DNA from: Opeltia flavorubescens
Taxonomy: Eukaryota; Ascomycota; Lecanoromycetes; Teloschistales; Teloschistaceae
Length of the DNA: 64,000 nt
NCBI GenBank assembly: GCA_000442125.1
Contig: KE546967.1
Span: forward strand, 1,922,001 to 1,986,000
Reading direction: 5' to 3'
In this document: piece by piece, positions 4,754 through 33,642 of the stretch
Layout of the letters: each line of letters opens with the position of its first letter
Numbering within the stretch: the first letter of the stretch is position 1
Notes under the pieces: model-generated
What the model was told of the DNA's origin: nothing
Database searches by the model: none
The model's input: only the letters and a program-made list of their open reading frames with translations
Translations under genes and position numbers: made by a program

Positions 4754-6169
<1,416 letters not shown>

Positions 6170-19337: not shown

Positions 19338-20144
19338 GATGGACTCTGCTGACCTACCCACTTTCTCTACCAACGCCGCCACCATCACCGCTAGCACAGC
19401 GTCCTCGCCTACTGCATCTACTGTATCCGTTACATCGACTTCACCCTCTACCTCCAACGATGGCCATACTGTTCACCTTAGGAACATGTCAAACTATCAG
19501 ATTGGCGGACATGGGTAGCCCATCTCTACTTAGATGACGAACCCGGTGTCCACGGTAAGCGGCGCATCAATTACCCAGCGGACCTTGGAACGAAGCGACG
19601 AATCAAGCACAGACGAGAAGCAGCTGGAAAGGCCACTGTCGTGCAAGATTCAAAGGATATCTACTACTATGTTGTCATCAACGGCAATTTCAAGTTACAC
19701 GGGGATGACGGCCAGCGAATGACGTCGGCTAAGGACAGTGAGTTAGCAATCGAGCACGTCGTTACTATCAAACCTTTCAAGCTTGGAGCTATGGCAGCTT
19801 TCTCCAATCAAATCCCCACTGAGACGACCCTTCAATAACGCTCCCTGAAATTCCATGTCAATGTGCCGGTACCGTTCAAATTGACGGCGCATAAAACGGG
19901 CACCACCACCGTGAAGAATCCGTTCAGAGGCGCGCTGGCCAGCCAGTCCGCCGGAAGTATTGAAGCATCGCCATCGGCAGGTACCAAAAAGCCAAAGATC
20001 AAAAGTGGCGGTGCGAAGAAGACACTGAAGGTCGGGAAAGACTGTGATGCGAAGGATGAGAGCTCTGAGATGACGAGTGACACTCTGGTAGCTCAGCTTC
20101 TCCAGCAGGCGCTCGAGATGGGGACGATTGGTCAGGTTGGCTGA
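19338..20144 (+). pseudogene. Broken hypothetical gene (Ser/Thr-rich start plus two further segments)
   Basis: A frame opens at ATG 19338 (MDSADLPTFSTNAATITAST, Ser/Thr-rich) and stops after about 55 codons. One base out of phase a second coding-like segment runs to about 19838, with DIYYYVVINGNFKLHGDDG and IKPFKLGAMAAFSNQ. A third at 19863-20144 is Lys-rich (KKPKIKSGGAKKTLKVGKD) and ends LLQQALEMGTIGQVG. KKPKI also occurs in the next gene downstream, but similarity beyond that is weak. No domain recognised. A frameshift near 19510 or an unseen small intron would explain the first break. Confidence 0.4.
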
Positions 20145-20286
20145 AAGAGTGACGGAGGATGTTGAGGGAGGGATAAGGTCAAGTCGATACCTCGGGTGCT
20201 CAGCTCGTGCATTGAAACGTTGTTTGCGTACGATTGGCGAGTGAGGTGATGCTCAAATGTCATATGGCCCACCGTAATCCAAATCT

Positions 20287-20345
20287 GTTGGGCCAGCCCG
20301 ATTCATCAAATTATCACTTGCTTCCTTTTCTTATTCGCTTTACCT
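20287..20345 (+). promoter_or_regulatory. Conserved promoter block of the unknown tandem family, copy 1
   Basis: The segment with CCCGATTCATCAAATTATCA followed by CTTGCTTCCTTTTC lies 120-180 bp before the ATG at 20465. Near-identical text occurs at the same place before the copy that starts at 40451 on the other strand, and a diverged form occurs before the copy at 21563. Conservation of non-coding text among paralogues suggests either a recent common origin or a shared promoter. Confidence 0.55.
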
Positions 20346-20464
20346 TCTTCCATCCTTCCTACATATCACCATTGGACAGTCCTTTGAGCTGAGTCAATAC
20401 CCAAGGTTTCACGATCGATCTAGCATACCGTCTTCAGAACGGCTTACGGCCAGAGTAAGCTACT

Positions 20465-20979
20465 ATGACAACAAAGGTGAAAATGAAAATTGACAATGGT
20501 TAGAAGACTCTGAAGTCTCAAAAAGGACACTGACAGCTCGATAGATGACAACCATATGTTTGAGCCACTGTCCAGCTCATCTGAACCCGAGAGTGAGCCG
20601 AAGAAGGGCCACTGGCCTCGAGGAGCCAAAAAGCCAAAGATCACCAAATCACATGTCAACATGGTGAATAGCGCCATCGAGATAATCCAGAAGCTGGTCT
20701 ACACGATGGAAAATGCCGAAGACGCAGAAGATGACGATAGCAGCGTCGATACCCTGGCAGTACTGTCCAAAAATGCAGGTAGTGGAACAGTCAATGGAAA
20801 GAATGGACGCTGCACTATTTTGGGCAGGCGAGCAGGAAAAGCTTACGTATGCAAAGATCAAAGCTGCAAAGGGTGATCCAGAAGAAGCGAGAGCCATCAA
20901 AGTCCGATACGAAGAGCTCAGAACCAAACGGCAAGAAGCTCTACAGTTTCTCAAAGCCTATCCGGGAACAGCCAGTTGA
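20465..20979 (+). pseudogene. Unknown tandem family, copy with one frameshift
   Basis: Exon 1 (20465-20498, 34 nt) and the 46-nt intron (20499-20544) match the layout of the intact copy at 21563, whose exon 1 is also 34 nt. Exon 2 begins DDNHMFEPLSSSSEPESEP and includes GAKKPKITK and an acidic stretch. It changes frame near 20765-20790, after which the family core follows: MERMDAALFWAGEQEK, then KIKAAKGDPEEARAIKVRYE and LRTKRQEALQFLKAYPGT. A TGA then ends it where the intact copy continues another 45 residues. The frame change could be a sequencing error. Function unknown. Confidence 0.55.
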
Positions 20980-21384
20980 GTGGCATGACATGATGGCAAT
21001 AAATCGGGGGCAACACTTTCGGCCCTCGCCGAATCAGACGTGCTTAATATTCAGGAACGGGTATTTGATGGACAACAGCTAGAGCTGAAAGGCCCTGATT
21101 GACAATCACAGATTGTTAGGGAAGACTTTGAAGCTCGCACGGAACTCTGTTGATTGTTGTGGGAGTCATCGGGTAGAAGGAAGAGAATGAGGCAGGAGCA
21201 AGCATCCGAATGGCGAATTTTGTCCGGAATTAGGGTGGAAAAGAATTGAGTATAGGAAGTGCAGATGCTTAAGGGACGGCTACGGTCAAGTCGCTACCCC
21301 GAAGACTCAGCTCATTCCATAGGATGTATTTAGCGGACGTTCTGCGTAACAAGATAGATAATACTTACATCCGCCCCGTCAGCT

Positions 21385-21450
21385 TCCGGTTCCGTTGAGC
21401 TAACCCAATCTATCAATCTATCACTTCCCTTCATCTCGTTCTTTTTCTTT
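21385..21450 (+). promoter_or_regulatory. Conserved promoter block of the unknown tandem family, copy 2
   Basis: TTCCGGTTCCGTTGAGCTAA followed by CCCAATCTATCAATCTATCA and a long CTT/TTC tract lies 110-180 bp before the ATG at 21563. It parallels the blocks before 20465 and 40451. About 100 bp further upstream both tandem copies also share GGTCAAGTCG (20174 and 21283), giving a tandem repeat period of about 1.1 kb. Confidence 0.5.
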
Positions 21451-21562
21451 TCCTTCATTTTCATCTTTGTTACATTTTACCATTTAACTGGCCATTCGAC
21501 GAAATCTGTACCTAAAGACTTCTATCAATCCTCGACACCTGATTTAATTGACATCGACAGCC

Positions 21563-22338
21563 ATGACGCCAAAATCTGTGGTTGATACGGAGATGGGTGA
21601 GACGAGCCAAAAGTCCAAAGCAAAAGAGATACTGACACTCTCATAGATGAAGGTACTTCCAAGATTGAGGAAGCTGATGAGGAGTATGGGCCGTTGGATA
21701 GTCCCTCTGAACCTGAGACCGTCGAGAAAGATGATGAGATGTTGGGGCTGCTGCCCGATAGTTCCGCAGAGCCTGAGAGTGACCTGAAGGACACCAGTAT
21801 TGGTGGAAGGCGAAAGGCCAATGAAGGTTCCGATGAGCCCAAAGGTTTCAAACGACTAAAGGTCCCGCAAGCAAAGGTCATCGAAATCAAGAAGACACTG
21901 GAAACGCTGTGGGAAATGCAGGGGCAAATCCAGGAAGAAGGAGAAGAGGAAGACGACAATGACAAAAAAGAAAAGGATAGTCCATTGGCCGCTTCACTCG
22001 TTCTGGAAAAACTTCAGACAATGGAACAGGTAATGGAGCGCATGGATGCACTCGTGAAGTGGGATGCCCGACAGGAGAAGGCTCATTTCCATGCTTGCAT
22101 GGCGGAAGGAAGCTGTGAAGAACAAAACGCCAGCGATGCGAGGTTCAATGAAATTCGAACACGACGAGACGAGGCGATTAAGCTTCTGGAAATGTACCCA
22201 GGAACCGTAGGTAGAGTGAGCATCCACGACGGTCTTAAACCTACAGCAGGAATGAAGGCTTTCATCCAATCCAAAGTCCTTGATCCCATGGAATTGGTAC
22301 CTGTGGAAGTTCTGCCAAAGCCACAGATTCCAAAATGA
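21563..22338 (+). CDS. Intact member of an unknown tandem gene family (acidic, coiled-coil-like)
   Basis: Exons 21563-21596 and 21647-22338, with a 50-nt intron (ACTGAC branch, CATAG acceptor), give 241 residues. The start MTPKSVVDTEMG is followed by acidic Ser/Glu-rich sequence with LGLLPDSSAEPESDLKDTS, a basic patch GFKRLKVPQAK, and an acidic Glu/Asp run. The family core follows: MEQVMERMDALVKWDARQEK, NEIRTRRDEAIKLLEMYPGT, then VGRVSIHDGLKPTAGMKAF and IQSKVLDPMELVPVEVLPK. The core is predicted helical by eye. No signal peptide, membrane segment or known domain. It is the best-preserved of at least four copies here; the basic patch and acidic runs would suit a nuclear protein, but that is a guess. 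Confidence 0.7.
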
Positions 22339-22764: not shown

Positions 22765-25700
22765 CTATGCCACCTCAGTATTCTCCACGGATCTGTATCG
22801 CTCTTCAATCCCACGTAGCCACCCGTCAAAAGCCTCGGTCTGATCGGGCCGGATTTTAGCCTCCGAAGTTGCAAACCGTAAGAACTTGTGGTCTCGACAA
22901 AGGACGAGTAGAGGGGCTTCCTGATGTTCGATCATGCAACTCTGGCATAGATCCGTATCGGGGCATGTTTTACAATTGTAGAACGGATCAACTCCGTTAT
23001 GATCTTCTTGGCAGACATCACAAAGCACTCCGAGCCCGGCAAGGGGCATCCTCGTTTGCAATGCTTGTCTGGCGTCGTCCTCGGACCCAAGCATGAGAAG
23101 GTATCTAGCGAGGAGTCTCAGGCTGCCCCACTTCTGCCGCGCCAATTCCTTTCTTATCGCTGCTGCAAGCTCGGATGTCTTTCGTCGGAGAAGAACAGTA
23201 TCAGGAACAGATGCTTCTATACTCAACTCCGGTGAATGTTGCGATGCTTGACTTAGGTGCGGTCTCAAGAGCCGAAGCCAATCATAGCACGTCATTCCAA
23301 ATAGATCGGTTTTGGAGAGATCGGCCCCTTGGTGAATTAACTCGAGGACAAGCTCGTCAGATGTAGCCCTGGTAATGGCCTCGCGTAGCGGAGTGTCTCC
23401 AAATTTTGTTGCCGCATTGATGTCGCAACCTTTTGCAATCAAGCTTCGAACAAGTCTTAGGCTTCCATTTCCAGCAGCACAGAAGAGTGGTGTTACACCA
23501 TTTTCATCGGGGATCGTGGGATCGGCTCCTCGACGTAGCAATGTTTCGACGTTGATGGCGTTGTTGGTACAAAGAGCTAAAGAGAGTGCCATGGCCCCAT
23601 ATCGAGCTCGAACGTCAGGGGAACCACCTCGGTTTAGAAGTATATCCCGATCGAGTAGAAGGTTCACCGTCCAGTTACACTCATACTGAGTTTCAGGATC
23701 TATCTGCTGCCTTCCATAGATGCCTGGGCTGTAAGTAGCTTCATAATCCAGGATTGGTGTTGCAGTAGAAGAGTTGATAGATTTTATACTTTCGGCTGTC
23801 TGGTTACTCACGTCTTCGTTATAGTTAAGTAAGAGTCTCGCGGTATTCATTGAATGTCGCTCAAGCGCAAGGTACAGCGGCGTACAGCCCGACTCGGTCT
23901 GCGCACTAATATCGGCGCCGTTGGCAAGAAGAGTTGCTACAATATCCACATATCCAAGTCGCGCTGCGTGATGTAGAGGAGTTGCATTGTCTTTTCCCTT
24001 CTTGTTCAGCCACTGGGTTGTCATTGGAAGATAGCCGTGGGTCTCTCCTGATTCCGTGTGCGAGTGTTCTGACATAGATGACATCTTTGGCTGGAGAAGG
24101 ATTTCCACAACTTCAATATGGTTATTCTGGGCTGCCAAATGCAAAGGCGTGTCGTCATTCGATTCGTTGTCAAGAATACCTGCACCGTGGTCGAGCAGCA
24201 GCTTGACGATCGCAGGATGGCCGTTCCCCGCTGCTGCCAATAAAGGCATAGAGAGATGAGCTGACTTTTCAGGAATGAATAGACCCTTTGGCGCTGTGGC
24301 AGTACTATGATCAAGCAGCAGTCTGACTACTTCAAGATGACCTTGCGCTGCTGCGGTTGTAGTCGCTTCCCAGGTTTGAAAACGACTTAAGCCAGTAATA
24401 GTCTCACATTCAAGTAGGATCTTGACCATGCGGTTACGGCCATGGTATGCTGCCGCGTTGAGAGCGTGATGACGCCAACCTCCCTGCACTGTAACATCAG
24501 CGCCCCACGACATTAAGCGATCAAAGATGACTTCGCTGCCTATAGAGCAGGCTGCTTGCAGAGGGGTTCCGCATACTCCTCCGACTGAGTCAATATCTTG
24601 GTCTCCTTTCCCGTACAGATGATCCATCGTTGGCAGCAGCCCGAAAAGGCAAGCATAGTAAATCGGAATAGCATTCTCCTGGTGCGGAAGTAGTCCCAAG
24701 GAAGTGTCATAGTACGGTATGGCAGTATCACCTTGGTGTCTTATCCACGGAAAGTGAGGTTCTTTCTCGTATCTGACTCGCCAATTCCGAAAATTAATAT
24801 TATCCAATTTGAGGAAATCGTTCACAAAGCTGGATACTTTTCCATAAAACTCCCCAGATTCTCGCAGATGATGAAACCACGAGTGGACAGCATATGCCGT
24901 GAACGAACGAGGCCCTCCAGAATTGCTTCCATACCAGGCTTGTGAATCATTTAAAAAGCGGAGACAGAAGGCTGCAAGCAGGGCATGGTGCATTGCAAAT
25001 TGTGAGTGGTGATCTGGGGATACGTTTGCCAACGCCGGCGCAGGTAAGGCGATGGTAAGATATTGCTTGACCGACGCGTGAACAAGGTGTATGGTGCTCA
25101 TTGACGGATTCAACACCTCCACTTCATCCCGAATTTCGACCAGTGAATGGCAAAGTCCTCTTATTTCAATATTGTTGTACTCGTTGTCAATTTGTGCAGG
25201 TATGTTGTCTGTTTGAAACGCTTCTTTAGTTTCGTCAAGCTCGATGCTAAGCGCTTCGGTCATTTCCTGTACTGTGAAAGCTTGATACCCAAAGGTCAAC
25301 CATCGAAGGATATCAACTGCACGGTTGCGATCTGGCTCCGCGGCTGAGAGGATACTGTCTAAATTGCGTCTGTAGGTTTGATCAAGCCCACGAGGCATTC
25401 CTCGGATGATTTGTTGAATGGTCTTTGTATTTTGGGTACTTCGTAAATCGTACTGTTGGAGCTTGATCCACAGAAACATACCACTGGCTTTCTCTGCCAT
25501 CTGAGCCGAAAGCTCTCGACGAGAGGAATCGTTATATTTCGGAAATTTCTTTGCTACCACAAACTGCGAATAGAGGTCAATGTCACTTTTTACATCTTGA
25601 CGAGAGATCTTGCACTCTAGGATAAGGTATTCCTGTCGTTGTGTAGCGAAAGTGTTGATTTCGGACTCTATGTCGGTCTCATTGCGGCTCGTGATCAGAA

Positions 25701-26941
25701 ATTTAGCTCTTGTCGAGGCAAAAGCTTTCTTGACTTGCTTTAAGAAGTTACTCCTGGTATCATCCAAAGTTGGGTACTCATCTAGTCCATCAAGGGCAAA
25801 GACGCAGGATGGACACCGCACCAAAACTTTACGTAGAAGTTGCCAGATCATGCTTCCGGATGCTCTCCGGGTATTGTGCTGGCGGCGTGTAGCGCGGCAC
25901 AGATCAAGGATACCGCTACCTTGCTGAGCTATGTGTGTGATCCATGTGCGAACAATACCGTCAAGCGTGTCTGTTTTCGAAGCATGGCCTGATATAAATG
26001 CATAAGCAATCGGCAGTTTTAGGTTTTGTCTTACATGTCGAATCAGCCATGCAGAGAGTACGGTTTTTCCAACCCCGGCAGAACCGTGAACCCAAAGGAA
26101 TTTAGCACCAGTGTCGATGGTTGATGCAGACTGCCACTCGAGGTATGCTGGATGGGAAAGAATCCATTCGCATGTTCCATCCAGATGCAAAGATATGTGT
26201 TTTTCGAATTCATCATCATATTTAGAGGCATCGAGCCATTCCAAAACGTCAATCTTGTCGATCTCAAGAAGGTTCTCACGGATCTCTTGCAGAGCACAAT
26301 CGACCTCAGTAGAGGAGTCTTCGTTATCATTGGGTAAGAAAGCTGGGAGAAATCAGTAAGAATGATGTGGGTGTCTAAAATACTCTACTGGCATGCCTAC
26401 TGGTGGCCAATGAACTTATTTGATAGCTGACTGGACTAGCAACGTGGTAGAGTGCGTTGACCAGATCTTCTAGAACGCCAATGTCCTTTTTAAGCTTTTC
26501 CCTCTTCCTTAGGGACCAAAGGATTCGGCTCCGTGTAGATGGAGACTCACGAGGCTCTGGCTCACTCTTGAAAACACTGGATTTTGGACCCCAAATTACC
26601 TGTTGAGGTGCTTGTTGTCTGGTAGACAGCGTGATAGAAGAAAGGGTACCTTCTATATTGTGGAAAGTTTTCTTGACGGATGCAAGAATAAACTTGATGA
26701 TGGGGGCTCTTCTGGGATCATCCAGGCGAGGATCGTGAGGGTCCACCAAGCTATCATCTTTTATGCCAACGCTGTCTGCCCAGTCTTGTAATCGTATTCT
26801 ATAGGCTTCGATCTGTGCAAAGGTAGCCTGCGACTCGATTCCATATCTGCTGTAAGCTTTGAATTGACTCCCGATTTGAATACATGCGTTGTAGAGCGAC
26901 ACGATGCCAATAGCCAGTCCAGCAAATTCGACGCCAGACAT
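22765..26941 (-). CDS. NLR-like STAND protein: HeLo-like, NACHT, ankyrin repeats, ZZ zinc finger
   Basis: Exons 26941-26389 and 26342-22765, with a 46-nt intron, give 1376 residues. The start ATG gives MSGVEFAGLAIGIVSLYNAC. Residues 1 to about 200 form a HeLo-like helical domain (IEAYRIRLQDWADSVGI, then DLVNALYHV). HeLo domains in fungal NLRs and HET-s act as membrane-damaging death effectors. The NACHT ATPase has the P-loop GSAGVGKT (about 271-278), Walker B FALDGLDEYP (about 367-376) and ITSRNE sensor region. About ten ankyrin repeats follow (for example TPLHLAAQNNHIEVVEILL and TPLHHAARLGYVDIVATLL). A Cys-rich ZZ-type finger lies near the C-terminus (CDVCQEDHNGVDPFYNCKTC, then CQSCMIEHQ). 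The ankyrins are diverged rather than near-identical. The likely role is non-self recognition or programmed death. It is transcribed away from a HET-domain gene. Confidence 0.92.
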
Positions 26942-27613
26942 GAAGACTTGGAGGATGTTCCACCATGTGATCAAACTTTGCTGGCGACTTGTAGTACTCT
27001 AGATTGGAAGTAACTTGACCATAATCGACAGGGCCTTTCCTTGTGTCTTCCGATTATAGGCGAGGCAGATGGGGGAAGGAAACAAGGAGTTGTAAACCTC
27101 ATCCGATATTGACATTACCGCAAGGCTGGCCAGGCAACAGAATCTGTGCCTCTAGGTCACTGCCCCACTGCACGACAGTCCTGGAAGATGGGCTCAATTG
27201 GCAAGGCTACAGACGAGGTAAGCGTGGACCAATCGAACGGTGGTCCCAACATGACGAGGCTTTGCCTGCATATTCATACGTAATCACGTCCTGCGGGTTT
27301 TTACCACCATCTCAGAAGCAAGCCGACTGCCTAAGGATACAGTATCTCGAAAAGGGTTGAATACGGAAACCATGCCGCGACGCAAATTGCATAGCATCGA
27401 TGCGATAAGTGCAGTAATGAACAAAAGACATGAGTAACTGTAATATGGAAGCCCATATAATGACAAGAGCGCAGCTTTACAGGCAAGTTCAACGCGATTG
27501 GGTTCAAGTCACCCACTTGTTCGTCTGCCGTGAGAAAGTTCTTGCGTGCAGTAGTGAGTAGCTTTCAACACCCTTGTAAAGCTGGCATCAAGTGCTATCG
27601 ATTGTCAAGACAC
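26942..27613. promoter_or_regulatory. NLR-side part of the divergent NLR/HET intergenic region
   Basis: No supported gene. The open frame 27043-27360 (+) lacks domains. The start of the NLR lies at its left end and the inverted-repeat element at its right end. Confidence 0.4.
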
Positions 27614-28110
27614 CATTTGGCGCTTGAAAAACCCTAGAGACTGCTTAGCATCAAGAACAACAACACCAACACACTCATTCTGGGTCAGAATTCTATACAA
27701 ACGGTAAAAACTTAAACTAAAGGCCTAATAGGAGTCTATAACTCGGTATATTTATATTTTTATTTTAAAAATTTTTCTTCGCTCTTAGATCGTTCTTAAT
27801 TAAAGGTTTATTTTTTTAAATTTCGGAAAAGTCTTAAACGCGCCTACCGTAGAGTAGCGGAGCTACTAGTATAGCCCCCCGTAATAGAGCCCCGCCGTAC
27901 CCCGCTTGAAAATTAAAGAATTAAAATATGAATTTATATTTTTATTAATATCTACTACTAGTAAATACTATAAAGGTCTTATTTCCCTTATTTCTCACAA
28001 TTCTAGTGAGTGGTTGTAGAGTTATTATAGGAGTTGGTGACCGATATGAGTATGTTGGTGTTGTTGTTCTCGATGCCAAGCAGTCTCTAGGGTTTTGCAA
28101 GCGCCAAATG
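27614..28110. mobile_element. MITE-like element with ~70-bp terminal inverted repeats, 497 bp
   Basis: The left end (27614-27688) starts CATTTGGCGCTTG and includes CCCTAGAGACTGCTTAGCAT; the right end (28036-28110) is its reverse complement with about nine changes in ten matching bases by eye. The middle is very AT-rich (27740-27840, 27910-28000) but has a GC-rich island near 27840-27905 with small palindromes. No coding capacity. I see no clean target-site duplication; a 9-bp pair (TCAAGACAC and TCAGCGTAC) is too poor to claim. It looks like a non-autonomous DNA transposon, perhaps of Mutator or hAT type. It lies only 50 bp before the HET gene start. Confidence 0.78.
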
Positions 28111-28159
28111 TCAGCGTACGAGCTCTAGCAATGCGAACGACGTTCGTATCAAATTCTCA

Positions 28160-30383
28160 ATGGTACTCCACACTATCGTAACATCAGAAAGCCCATGTCC
28201 GAAATGCAAACAAATCGATCCATATTCCACCTATACCAGCGAAGATACAGATTCATTCAAACATCTGAAATGGCTAGACCAGTATCCTCAATTCTCAGCC
28301 CTAAAGACCTCGGCCGAGCGTGGCTGCGCATTATGTGGTTTATTGCGAGATGCTCTTCTACACAAGTACAGTGATATAGAGATCAAGAAGGCGGAGGATG
28401 ACTTCGATGAATCGGTCCAGCAAGAATGGCCTACAACAAAATGGAACGGGAACGTGGAGATCTACGGTGGACGTTTCGGTGCAGAAAAGATTGCCTCTCG
28501 GTCTCGTGCAGCTAATGAGAAGCAAGATGAAGAGTTTTCAATCTCGATCACCAATCTTTCCTTCAATATCTGGCCCTACCCTCCGCGCAGACAACATGAA
28601 GAGACGGGTCGCTGGGACAGCAACAGAATCTGGTTCAATGTTTACGGGGATTCAAGTAAGTGCTGTATAGATACTCCGGCCCGTGTTGTAAGACTCATAC
28701 TAATTTGATGAAAGACTCTGGTCCGAAAACCCCCTCAAGGCGAGTATTGCCCTGTGACGATGCTCTATCGGCATCCAATGTGAAGGCTATCATGAATTGG
28801 CTCAAAGTGTGCTCAAAAGACCACGCCAAATGCCATCGCAAGAAACTAGCAGTTCTTCCGACCCGGGTCATTGACGTTGGACTAGCCAATGGCTCCATAG
28901 ATCCTAGGCTTATCGTCACGAACGGAGAAACAAACCCGTACATCGCTCTGAGCCATTGCTGGGGCAGGCCTCCAAAGTCTGCAGTACCTAAAAATGCTCG
29001 CACTGTGTCGACGAACTTCGAAAGCATGTTGGCTGGGATTCCTATCGATTCTGTTCCCCGTAATTTCCAAGATGCAATCGAAATTGTCCGCGCACTCGGT
29101 CTTCGCTATCTCTGGATTGATGCTTTGTGCATCATTCAAGACTCTGCGAGCGACTGGGAGGCGGAAGCTGCACGGATGCAAGAGGTCTACGGCTCCGCTT
29201 ATTTGACACTGGCAGGTACCTCAGCAATATCAAGTATCGACGGCTTCATCGCGCGATCTGTATGGCCATTTCCAGTCCTACGCATGAATCGTCATGTCGA
29301 GGACTCTGCTTCTAGTCAGGACAGCGTCTACTTCCGTTATCAGCCAGAGTTTGCGACGTATTCACGAGCTGAAGCCATCGATAATTCGGTATGGAATACT
29401 CGAGGCTGGACTTTTCAAGAGCGCCTGCTGTCCAACCGCATTCTACATTTCACTTCAGGTCGACTGTACTGGGAATGCCGTACTACCGAAGGCTCGGAAG
29501 AGAACGAGCCAGCACGTGAACTCAATTACCAGACTGAATGGATGGCTACCGAAGTTGAGAATATCCGGGAATTGCCCGTCTATCCAGATATATCTGGTGT
29601 TGACAATCGGTATCAGCGATGGTATAGGCTCGTCTCCTTGTGAGTAACCATTTACTTCCCAAAGTAGTCAAGTAGCGTTGACTTACGCTCTACAGGTACT
29701 CCAAACGTGATCTGAGCTTCAGGAAAGATGCTCTTCCAGCACTCTCCGGTCTTGCACACGCTTTTCATCATGTATACGCCAACAAAGACACATATGTCGC
29801 TGGACTCTGGCTGCGCGATTTTATGCGTGGGCTGCTGTGGATGACCAAAGACAGCAGCAAAGCGACGCGAACACTCGAATACGGTTCTCCCTCTTGGTCA
29901 TGGGCGTCAATGATTGGTGAACTTGATTGGCCTAGCCGAACGATAGACAGACATTGTCACTACAATTACGCTGCCGAATTACTCGATGCGCAGACCACGA
30001 CGGATTCTACAGACCCAATGGGGTCCACCAAGGGAGGAACGATCAAGTTGCGGAGTAAATACCAGCAGCTTTCCAAGGTCGTCAAACCATCAGAGAAAAG
30101 TTTTCACGCACGGTTTCCCTTTGATCTGATATCCGACGGCAAAGTGGTTGCAAACGGCAGCTTCGATAGTGATTCCGAGACCCAGACGGACAATGTCTGG
30201 ATGCTGCAAATCGAGGAACAAGGACTCGGAGACTCATTCTTTCCGTACCACCCCATTGGCCTTTTGTTGAAGAAAGTCGATGGAAGTGCCTCTCAATTCA
30301 GTCGTATAGGCTTTTTCACCCTCAATGAAGATCGGATTAAGCATTTTGATAATATTGAACCCAAAGAGATAGTCCTGGTATGA
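28160..30383 (+). CDS. HET-domain (heterokaryon incompatibility) protein
   Basis: Exons 28160-28655, 28715-29639 and 29696-30383 join in frame to 702 residues. Intron 1 has an ACTAAT branch and intron 2 a GTGAGT donor. An N-terminal CPKC and CALCGLLRDALL motif is typical of one HET subfamily. The HET domain itself spans about residues 240-390: YIALSHCWG (about 241-249), NFQDAIEIVRALGLRYLWID, then ALCIIQDSASDWEAEAARM and VYGSAYLTLAGTSA. A C-terminal part with NTRGWTFQERLLSNRILHF and SPSWSWAS follows, the usual HET-protein tail. HET domains trigger cell death when non-self cells fuse, and several act with NLR partners. It is head to head with the NLR at 22765-26941, with 1.2 kb between starts. 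A function as its partner is inference from position. Confidence 0.92.
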
Positions 30384-31307: not shown

Positions 31308-33642
31308 ATGGAGGCCCGAGTCATTGTTGTCGGCGGCGGCTGTGAGACGAGCCCCCTCAGCTTTCCCTTGGCCCGAGACTGACAGGATGACAGTGTCCGG
31401 CTTGAGTGCTGCTCATACCATATACCTGGCTGGTGGAAACGTCTTACTTCTGGACAAGAACAGTATGTGAAGCCTCCTAAACCACCTACACCACCTGCAC
31501 ACTTTGCTCGACAAGACAAGGTCTTGGTGGAACGATGTGACAGCCTGGAATTTTCTTCGAGTCGATGGACATCTGACGTTCTTCAGACTTCTTCGGCGGC
31601 AATTCGACAAAAGCAACATCCGTATGTATTTCAAAATTCACGATACAGAAGCCATACTGACTTGAATCCTTCCAGGGTATCAACGGTGCTTTGACGAGAA
31701 CACAAGTCGACGAGAAGATTGGAGACAGCGTCAAGCAATTCTACGAAGACACCCTCAAGTCTGCCAGAGATAAGGCCCGTCCAGATCTTATCAAAGTCCT
31801 TACCTACAAATCTTCCGCCGCGGTCGAGTGGCTACAAGATGTCTTCAACCTCGATCTTACACTGGTCTCACGATTGGGGTACGTTTGAGTGTTCAACTTG
31901 ATGACTAGTCACAACGGCTAATCATTTACAGCGGTCACTCTCAACCACGAACACACAGAGGGCATGACGCCAAATTCCCAGGCATGGCCATTACATATGC
32001 CCTGATGCAGAGATTGGAGGAATTGGTCGCAAGCGATCCGGAACGAGTTCAAATCATCAAGAAAGCCAAGGTGACCTCGGTCAATAAGGAGGGCAACAAG
32101 GTAACTGGAGTTACCTACGATTACGGTGGAGAGAAGTGCACGGTGAACGGCGTGGTTGTACTGGCTACTGGAGGCTACGCTGCCGACTTTTCAGAAACAT
32201 CTCTCCTCAAAAAGCACAGGCCTGATACCTTCGACCTTGCTAGCACCAACGGTACTCATGCCACCGGTGACGGTCTGAAGATGTTGATGGAGATTGGCGG
32301 TCGAGGCATAGATCTGGACAAGGTGCAGGTGCATCCTACAGGCCTGGTGGATCCCAAAGATCCTGGTTCGAAGTGGAAGTTCCTGGCTGCTGAAGGTACT
32401 CATCAAGATCCCATGTCACTTCTGCTTGATCCATCACTGATTTCCTGTAGCTCTCCGCGGTGAAGGTGGTCTCTTGCTCAATGGCGAAGGTCAACGTTTC
32501 TCCGATGAGCTTGGTCACCGTGACTATGTCTCCGGCGAGATGTGGAAGCAAAAGGAAGCCAAGAAATGGCCCATCCGATTGGTTCTCAACTCCAAAGCCT
32601 CGAACGTCCTCGATTTCCACACTCGACATTACTCTGGTCGCGGCTTGATGAAGAAAATGTCCGGTAAGGCACTGGCGAAAGAAATCGGTTGCTCGGAAGA
32701 CACTCTGCAAGGCACATTTACCGACTACAATGCCATTGCCGACGGCAAGAAGAAAGATCCATTCGGCAAGAAGTTCTTCCACAACCTTCCTTTCGACATC
32801 AACGACACCTTCCACGTAGCGCTCATGGAGCCAGTCCTCCACTTCACAATGGGCGGTATCGAGATCAACGACAAGGCGCAAGTTCTAAATCCCGAAGGCG
32901 ATACTTTCGAAGGCCTCTACGCTTGTGGAGAACTCGCTGGCGGTGTCCATGGCGCGAATCGACTCGGTGGCTCCTCATTACTCGGCTGCGTGGTCTACGG
33001 CCGCGTAGCAGGTGAGAGTGCAAGTCAATATCTCTTCCAGAAAGTCATCACAGGCGGTATCTCCTCTGCTTCTCAGCGCCTTGGCCAAATCTCACTGCAC
33101 ATCGACCCTAACACCCCCGGCAAAATCTCCGTCGAATGGGCAAATGGTGATTCTGCGTCCTCGTCCTCTTCATCAGCATCTTCATCCGCCAACGCCCCCT
33201 CAGTAGGCGGCCAGAAGCAAGCAGACCAATCCCAACAGTCCGTCGCCCCCGTAATGAAAGGCGCGAACGCCGACAGCAATGATCCAGGAAAAGTCGGTAA
33301 GCCTACCGACCCGGTAGAGTTCAAGGTTCCGGAAAAGGAATATTCGATGGAGGAAGTGCAGAAGCATAACAAGAAGGATGATCTGTGGATCGTGGTCAAG
33401 GGCGTGGTGCTCGACGTGACAAACTGGTTGGATGAGCATCCGGGAGGACCACAGGCGCTCTTTAGCCATATGGGGAGGGATGCTACTGAAGGTACGTTTC
33501 GGGTATTCCCCTGCGATCGAAGTATGTTGACGTTGAGATTATAGAATTCGAAATGCTGCACGATGACGAGGTTATCCCCAAGTATGCGGCGAATATCGTC
33601 ATCGGGCGGGTTCAAGGCCAGACACCTAGTCTTGAGATATGA
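31308..33642 (+). CDS. Soluble-type fumarate reductase flavoprotein fused to a cytochrome b5 domain (Osm1-like)
   Basis: Seven exons, 31308-31341, 31394-31462, 31587-31621, 31676-31878, 31932-32395, 32451-33491 and 33545-33642, join in frame to 647 residues. The start carries the FAD-binding motif VIVVGGGLSGLSAAH, then GGNSTKATSGINGA. Further marks are LATGGYAADF, KVQVHPTGL, the active-site region RGEGGLLLNGEGQRF and FTMGGIEI, and GGVHGANRLGGSSLLG. A Ser/Ala-rich linker (about 500-545) leads to a cytochrome b5 domain with YSMEEVQKHNKKDDLW and the heme ligand region WLDEHPGG. Yeast Osm1 and Frd1 reduce fumarate to recycle FAD/FADH2 or NADH; fusion with cytochrome b5 is common in filamentous fungi. 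No obvious mitochondrial leader is seen, so location is open. Confidence 0.92.

Follow-up and report, generated by a model that had tools for sequence, protein, structure and literature searches.

Do two fungal death genes that start from the same stretch of DNA act together, or have they merely come to lie side by side? The question is raised by 64,000 nucleotides of Opeltia flavorubescens (C3:1922001-1986000, in a genome of 34.4 Mb and 23 contigs; hereafter the window), in which an NLR gene of the HeLo-NACHT-ankyrin-ZZ type and a gene for a HET-domain protein diverge from one intergenic region, with a 497-bp inverted-repeat element in between. The original prediction raised the possibility that the two genes work as a pair. 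We put the probability at about 0.65 that they are instead two independent members of large death-gene families that have become divergent neighbours, an old element lying at the promoter of the HET gene. Nothing that we found requires joint action of the two proteins.

The divergent genes and the element between them

Both genes are intact and run head-to-head, the NLR gene from 26941 to 22765 on the minus strand and the HET gene from 28160 to 30383 on the plus strand. Their ATGs are 1,218 bp apart, which bears out the expected layout of divergent starts about 1.2 kb from each other. Splice sites were read by eye from the sequence, so that these are predicted gene models.

The NLR gene consists of exon 1 (26941-26401), an intron (26400-26343) and exon 2 (26342-22765), and its 1372-residue product is 100% identical to a database protein of that length, P0001. 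Pfam places a HeLo domain (PF14479) at residues 8-178 (26408-26920, minus strand; 53.1 bits against a curated cut-off of 23.2) and an NPHP3_N/NACHT nucleotide-binding domain at 25684-26178 (minus strand; NPHP3_N 101.1 bits, cut-off 24.8; NACHT 27.1 bits, barely over its cut-off of 26.7). Ankyrin repeats follow, the best stretches of which span approximately 23380-24468 (minus strand; Ank_2 171.3 bits, cut-off 27.3), and then a ZZ zinc finger at 22918-23028 (minus strand; 28.2 bits, cut-off 21.4), which is also visible in its cysteine spacing. The same spacing is present in 12 of 13 family members inspected, the window NLR included (11 of 12 relatives). Compared by sequence with known structures, the N-terminal domain gave HET-s as its top-ranked match (E 0.013). 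The gene has the composition of a fungal NLR: a nucleotide-binding domain, C-terminal ankyrin repeats and an N-terminal HeLo effector domain. One homologue, P0009 of Kuettlingeria, carries a cysteine/histidine-rich stretch before its ankyrin part; this stretch, which we take to resemble a PHD finger, may be real or a gene-model error.

The HET gene is made up of three exons (28160-28655, 28715-29639 and 29696-30383, plus strand) separated by predicted introns at 28656-28714 and 29640-29695, and encodes 702 residues identical to database protein P0121. It shows two features of TOL/PIN-C type proteins, a HET domain (PF06985; 28939-29421, plus strand; 111.6 bits against a Pfam cut-off of 22.5) and, after it, the PSWSW motif, which is named in PMC10890737 and was read in the translation at 29889-29903 (plus strand). 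Homologues were listed as representatives clustered at 90% identity, 120 of the 156 over threshold for the NLR and 120 of 1748 for the HET protein; PSWSW is present in 87 of these 120 HET proteins, that of the window included. The start, MVLHTIV, also begins a protein of Gyalolechia gomerana (P0122), and identity to two Gyalolechia proteins is 69% (whole length) and 73% (64% covered). Death-type domains had been expected on both products and are found there well enough to pass the Pfam cut-offs, HeLo on the NLR and the HET domain on its neighbour. Among the matches listed, the nearest named relatives of the NLR, the HET protein and a fumarate reductase encoded nearby are from lichen fungi, for example Loekoesia, Gyalolechia, Variospora and Seirophora. 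The placement of Gyalolechia was looked up; the other three we take to be Teloschistaceae.

The inverted-repeat element announced ahead of the HET ATG is also there (27614-28110; 497 bp, GC 0.36, RIP-type (repeat-induced point mutation) dinucleotide bias). Its 65-nt arms, at 27614-27678 and 28046-28110, are 94% complementary; the right arm stops 49 bp before the HET ATG, and 672 bp of other DNA separate the left arm from the NLR ATG. An arrangement of this kind is beyond chance because the same termini recur elsewhere in the genome, in at least seven short copies (the window, C5, C6 with two, C7, C10 and C11), at least five long inverted pairs and at least one single end. When the window copy is aligned with six other short copies, the termini are 78-94% identical and the interior only 42-58%, and for the latter reason we regard it as an old insertion. 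Inverted termini, several short copies that share them and larger relatives give it the character of a miniature inverted-repeat transposable element (MITE). It resembles the MITEs of fungal terminal-inverted-repeat DNA transposons in its length of about 0.5 kb, in having no reading frame of 100 or more residues in the window copy and in 65-nt inverted termini common to larger copies. Unlike them, it has no recognised target-site duplication: none was seen in the eight copies inspected, 5-base matches at shifted offsets in three being about what chance gives with so many offsets. The element is a short copy, probably a non-autonomous one, from a family of inverted-repeat DNA transposons with AT-rich large copies. 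Since it ends 49 bp from the HET ATG, HET transcription would probably start inside it or be read across it; with 672 bp of other DNA on the opposite side, the HET gene is the one it would be likeliest to affect, and the NLR gene less so.

A pair, or neighbours by density?

Is this proximity more than the genome's supply of such genes would produce? Matches merged within 2.5 kb yield 87 HET loci and 46 NACHT-type loci (50 matches plus one added), and in 34.4 Mb neighbours are therefore to be expected. Null distributions were obtained by shifting the NACHT-type loci by up to 30, 60 or 150 kb, with the sizes of 7 or 8 contigs estimated. Three of the 46 NACHT-type loci, that of the window among them, have a HET match no more than 5 kb away, against null means of 2.79, 2.94 and 2.31, respectively.

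A second divergent pair is found on contig C5. There (C5:60001-70000), a SesA-NACHT-ankyrin NLR stands head-to-head with a PSWSW-type HET gene, their putative starts less than 0.4 kb apart (first HET Met codon at position 4789 of this interval, likely NLR ATG at 5172). By bits, the C5 HET (C5:63137-64240) is the best genome match of the window HET (193, next 160), and the C5 NLR (C5:66304-67947) the second-best of the window NLR (124, best 270). Could one pair be a copy of the other? We rejected this on the position of the HET protein in the tree, on low homologue ranks and on the difference between a SesA and a HeLo NLR. In a tree of 60 proteins, which covers the C5 HET (the C5 NLR is in no tree), a split supported at 100/98 separates it from the window HET clade. 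Ranks were taken against 240 proteins, the 120 NLR and 120 HET homologues, which had been selected for their similarity to the two window proteins. Among 120 matches of the C5 HET, the window HET comes 62nd; for two pieces of the C5 NLR, the window NLR is 19th of 108 and 69th of 99, and it is not among the 1 and 23 matches of the other two pieces. It is thus improbable that the C5 pair arose by copying of a unit, subject to the caveat that its HET protein sits on a long branch.

Do the two genes stay together in relatives? Comparison was through lists of cluster representatives and the sizes of the longest contigs, the assemblies being fragmentary and clustering at 90% hiding some members; the trees take in 59 HET proteins and 57 NLR proteins, out of 120 listed for each. 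Counted by tree rows, 8 named assemblies belong to the window HET clade and 17 to the NLR clade, 23 in union with an overlap of two. These two, Kuettlingeria Q9207 and Caloplaca sp. 1 Q9220, both have the genes on contigs of different size (29,593 and 17,857; 134,513 and 248,175), and among the contigs of the 57 NLR tree proteins and the 120 listed HET proteins no equal size occurs. Assemblies Q9204 and Q9209, whose homologues of both proteins are likewise on contigs of different size (7,296 and 7,004; 475,240 and 87,710), are excluded from this count, since the tree puts their HET proteins into a sister clade. Few of the 120 listed homologues of the neighbouring fumarate reductase, also cluster representatives, are from Teloschistaceae; in Bacidia gigantensis the locus numbers of this protein and of the NLR homologue are far apart, and their contigs differ in size. 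Separation of the genes in relatives, the outcome that the original prediction had to fear, is pointed to by both assemblies that show the two genes, but in assemblies so fragmentary it is not proved.

Nor did a shared motif emerge. Local alignment of the NLR with the HET protein, without motif profiles, scored 44, against a mean of 42.4 and a maximum of 53 in shuffles, and the termini did not rise above shuffles. Because HeLo begins at residue 8, the NLR has no N-terminal extension in which a motif of the het-S/nwd2 type might sit.

The reading that we prefer, two independent genes, assigns each protein a task of its own. Judging from its family, the NLR would be a self-contained receptor that senses through its ankyrin/ZZ end, oligomerises through its NACHT domain and attacks the membrane with its N-terminal HeLo bundle; the HET protein would be a death effector with a PSWSW domain of TOL/PIN-C type. 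Several observations weigh against independence. Death-type domains are present on both proteins, and the layout matches that of het-s and nwd2, described as divergent in PMC3321046. Divergent pairs within 4 kb number two, the window's included, against null means of 0.60, 0.60 and 0.45 (P 0.116, 0.121 and 0.070), a count that leans high without being compelling. Pairs within 15 kb outnumber what uniform placement would give (9 against 2.87, P 0.001); the excess vanishes under 60-kb jitter (7.98 expected, P 0.40), and therefore looks like regional clustering. Ranked by bits, the C5 pair unites the top HET paralogue with the NLR paralogue in second place, a combination of ranks that chance is unlikely to produce, and the tree tool flags as unsure the placement of the C5 HET, which forms a long branch. 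Finally, the relatives' contigs are short, and P0128, the HET protein of Kuettlingeria, is without its N-terminus, so that in Kuettlingeria a contig break between the genes is possible.

Do these points amount to a functional unit, with the NLR as sensor, the HET protein as executioner or amplifier of death and both genes regulated jointly from the intergenic region that they share? We consider this unlikely, though it is the rival that we take most seriously. Fungi are known to have NLR/effector gene pairs (PMC3321046 among the sources), and to the head-to-head layout, the death domains on both products and the high-ranking paralogues on C5 may be added two of the 120 listed NLR homologues, P0048 and P0051 (33-34% identical to the NLR), in which a HET domain is fused to a NACHT-ankyrin relative. 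The fused HET domains, however, are only about 25% identical to that of the window, over 115-189 residues. Closely similar NOD domains are reported to bear HET in one NLR and a HeLo-like domain in another (PMC4986451). The C5 members rank low among the listed homologues, with the C5 HET elsewhere in the tree. The claim that the NLR and HET proteins act as a pair went unsupported: pairs do not exceed local density, both genes are seen in two of 23 assemblies and on different contigs in each, no motif is shared, and the NLR, bearing a HeLo domain of its own, needs no partner. A bolder version would have a two-executioner device, a HeLo-NLR and a TIR-like HET effector divergently transcribed from one control region with a transposon in it, where a single act of sensing would both open the membrane and set a second death enzyme to work; the pair of HeLo-NLR and HET in the window and that of SesA-NLR and HET on C5 would be separate assemblies of the same device. 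This we hold to be quite improbable.

The locus could also be one of allorecognition (a het locus) in which balancing selection acts on one gene or on both, be there an interaction between them or not. HET and NLR genes often act as het determinants (PMC10197012 among the sources), and the window NLR is remote from its nearest tree relative, by 0.45 changes per column on each side. In Podospora anserina, however, the tally of HET genes in allorecognition is given as only 5:125 (PMC10197012), and we see less chance for this proposal than for a functional unit. Might the element, 49 bp from the ATG and with its RIP-type bias, have silenced or damaged the HET gene and left the NLR alone active? 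The HET frame is open and similar to the Gyalolechia proteins, and an open frame behind an old insertion argues against loss of function; of the explanations considered here we deem this the least likely, and very improbable. Two independent genes remain the reading that we prefer.

The transposon family and the flanking genes

What larger elements share the termini of the window copy? Five correctly oriented long pairs, spaced 6.4, 6.4, 14.5, 20.6 and 38.4 kb, mark large copies at C8:523503-529912 and C11:1595160-1601519 (6.4 kb each), C8:1038591-1053092, C5:950638-971193 and C21:467302-505711; a single terminus lies at C19:592588-592661. The C21 block was read in tiles and about 1 kb inside four others at one or both edges, with C8:1038-1053 kb left out. 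Where read, the large copies have about 15% GC, with the inverted termini as borders. In 200-bp bins at seven edges (one faulty bin excluded), GC is 0.38-0.57 outside and 0.07-0.29 inside, and the terminus at the left edge of C21 marks a drop from about 0.5 to about 0.1. For five of the edges, the first 1 kb or so of interior sequence is co-linear, with 83-86% identity in each of the 10 pairwise comparisons, and the remaining two edges are 86% identical to each other over 710 bp; these comparisons therefore argue for one transposon family with two distinct ends. The idea that AT-rich blocks of this kind are centromeres was rejected for at least some of them, since C8 has two.

TpA/ApT is 1.33-1.41 in the six short copies (of seven) that were measured, 0.65 in the window as a whole and 1.24-1.26 in two C21 tiles; (CpA+TpG)/(ApC+GpT) is 0.68-0.81 in the same six short copies, 1.29 in the window as a whole and 0.07 in the two tiles. 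We take these indices of the short copies and the C21 tiles to be a RIP-type pattern. The fraction of transitions among differences between short copies, 0.32-0.53 in 20 of 21 pairs and 0.85 in one, counts against a plain RIP history; perhaps the low values are due to poor alignment of old pairs. Between the closest short copies, C6:1103487-1103986 and C5:278807-279308, interior identity is 95% and transitions make up 85% of the differences, and the family would therefore have been copied comparatively recently. At seven large-copy or single ends the termini have 33-47% GC and are 81-98% identical to the C21 left end, and the DNA just inside them has 12-22% GC. One guess is that continued mobilisation selects for the tips and has spared them the decay towards AT.

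Beyond the two genes, a conserved fumarate reductase, named from its homologues, lies 3' of the HET gene at 31308-33642; spliced by hand, it is 94% identical to a Seirophora lacunosa protein. Downstream of the NLR gene, at 19743-22338, acid-rich reading frames share similar SEPES/SEPET stretches, one of them a frame of 245 residues with no Pfam match.

Comparison with known systems and significance

Which known systems does the locus resemble? The example offered for an NLR next to a death gene, het-S/nwd2 of P. anserina, is apt: there an NLR gene adjoins and diverges from the gene for a death protein, and HeLo is involved, as PMC3321046 describes it. The window differs in having HeLo on the NLR itself, a HET gene as the neighbour and no shared motif found. 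With TOL/PIN-C of Neurospora crassa the window HET protein has in common a HET domain and a PSWSW domain, as set out in PMC10890737. Unlike them, it has no known incompatibility role, and the other eight rows of its clade all carry names of Teloschistaceae-type lichen fungi. The genera of this clade we take to be lichens, Gyalolechia alone having been looked up. HeLo-NACHT-ankyrin NLRs, catalogued in many fungi in PMC4986451, likewise have an N-terminal HeLo domain; the window NLR adds a C-terminal ZZ finger, and a search of the open-access literature found no paper on a ZZ-type finger together with NACHT and ankyrin in fungi. As in het-B of P. anserina, a HET gene lies beside an unrelated gene; PSWSW-type HET genes are also reported beside PII-like genes (PMC10890737), whereas the neighbour of the window HET gene is an NLR.

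Non-allelic incompatibility genes are described as being more commonly two tightly linked genes (PMC12881547), and 61% of N. crassa HET genes are reported to cluster with lineage-specific genes near telomeres (PMC10684091). A non-exhaustive search of the open-access literature turned up no description of an NLR adjoining a separate HET gene as a system. If the two genes do act together, the locus would represent a new NLR-effector pairing, a HeLo receptor with a HET effector, in a lichen fungus, and would bear on the purpose of the many HET genes. Its main value is one of caution: where a single genome has 87 HET and 46 NACHT-type loci, density alone can yield back-to-back pairs. Genome biologists may get more use from the transposon family, whose large copies are AT-rich and sharply bounded, than from the gene pair.

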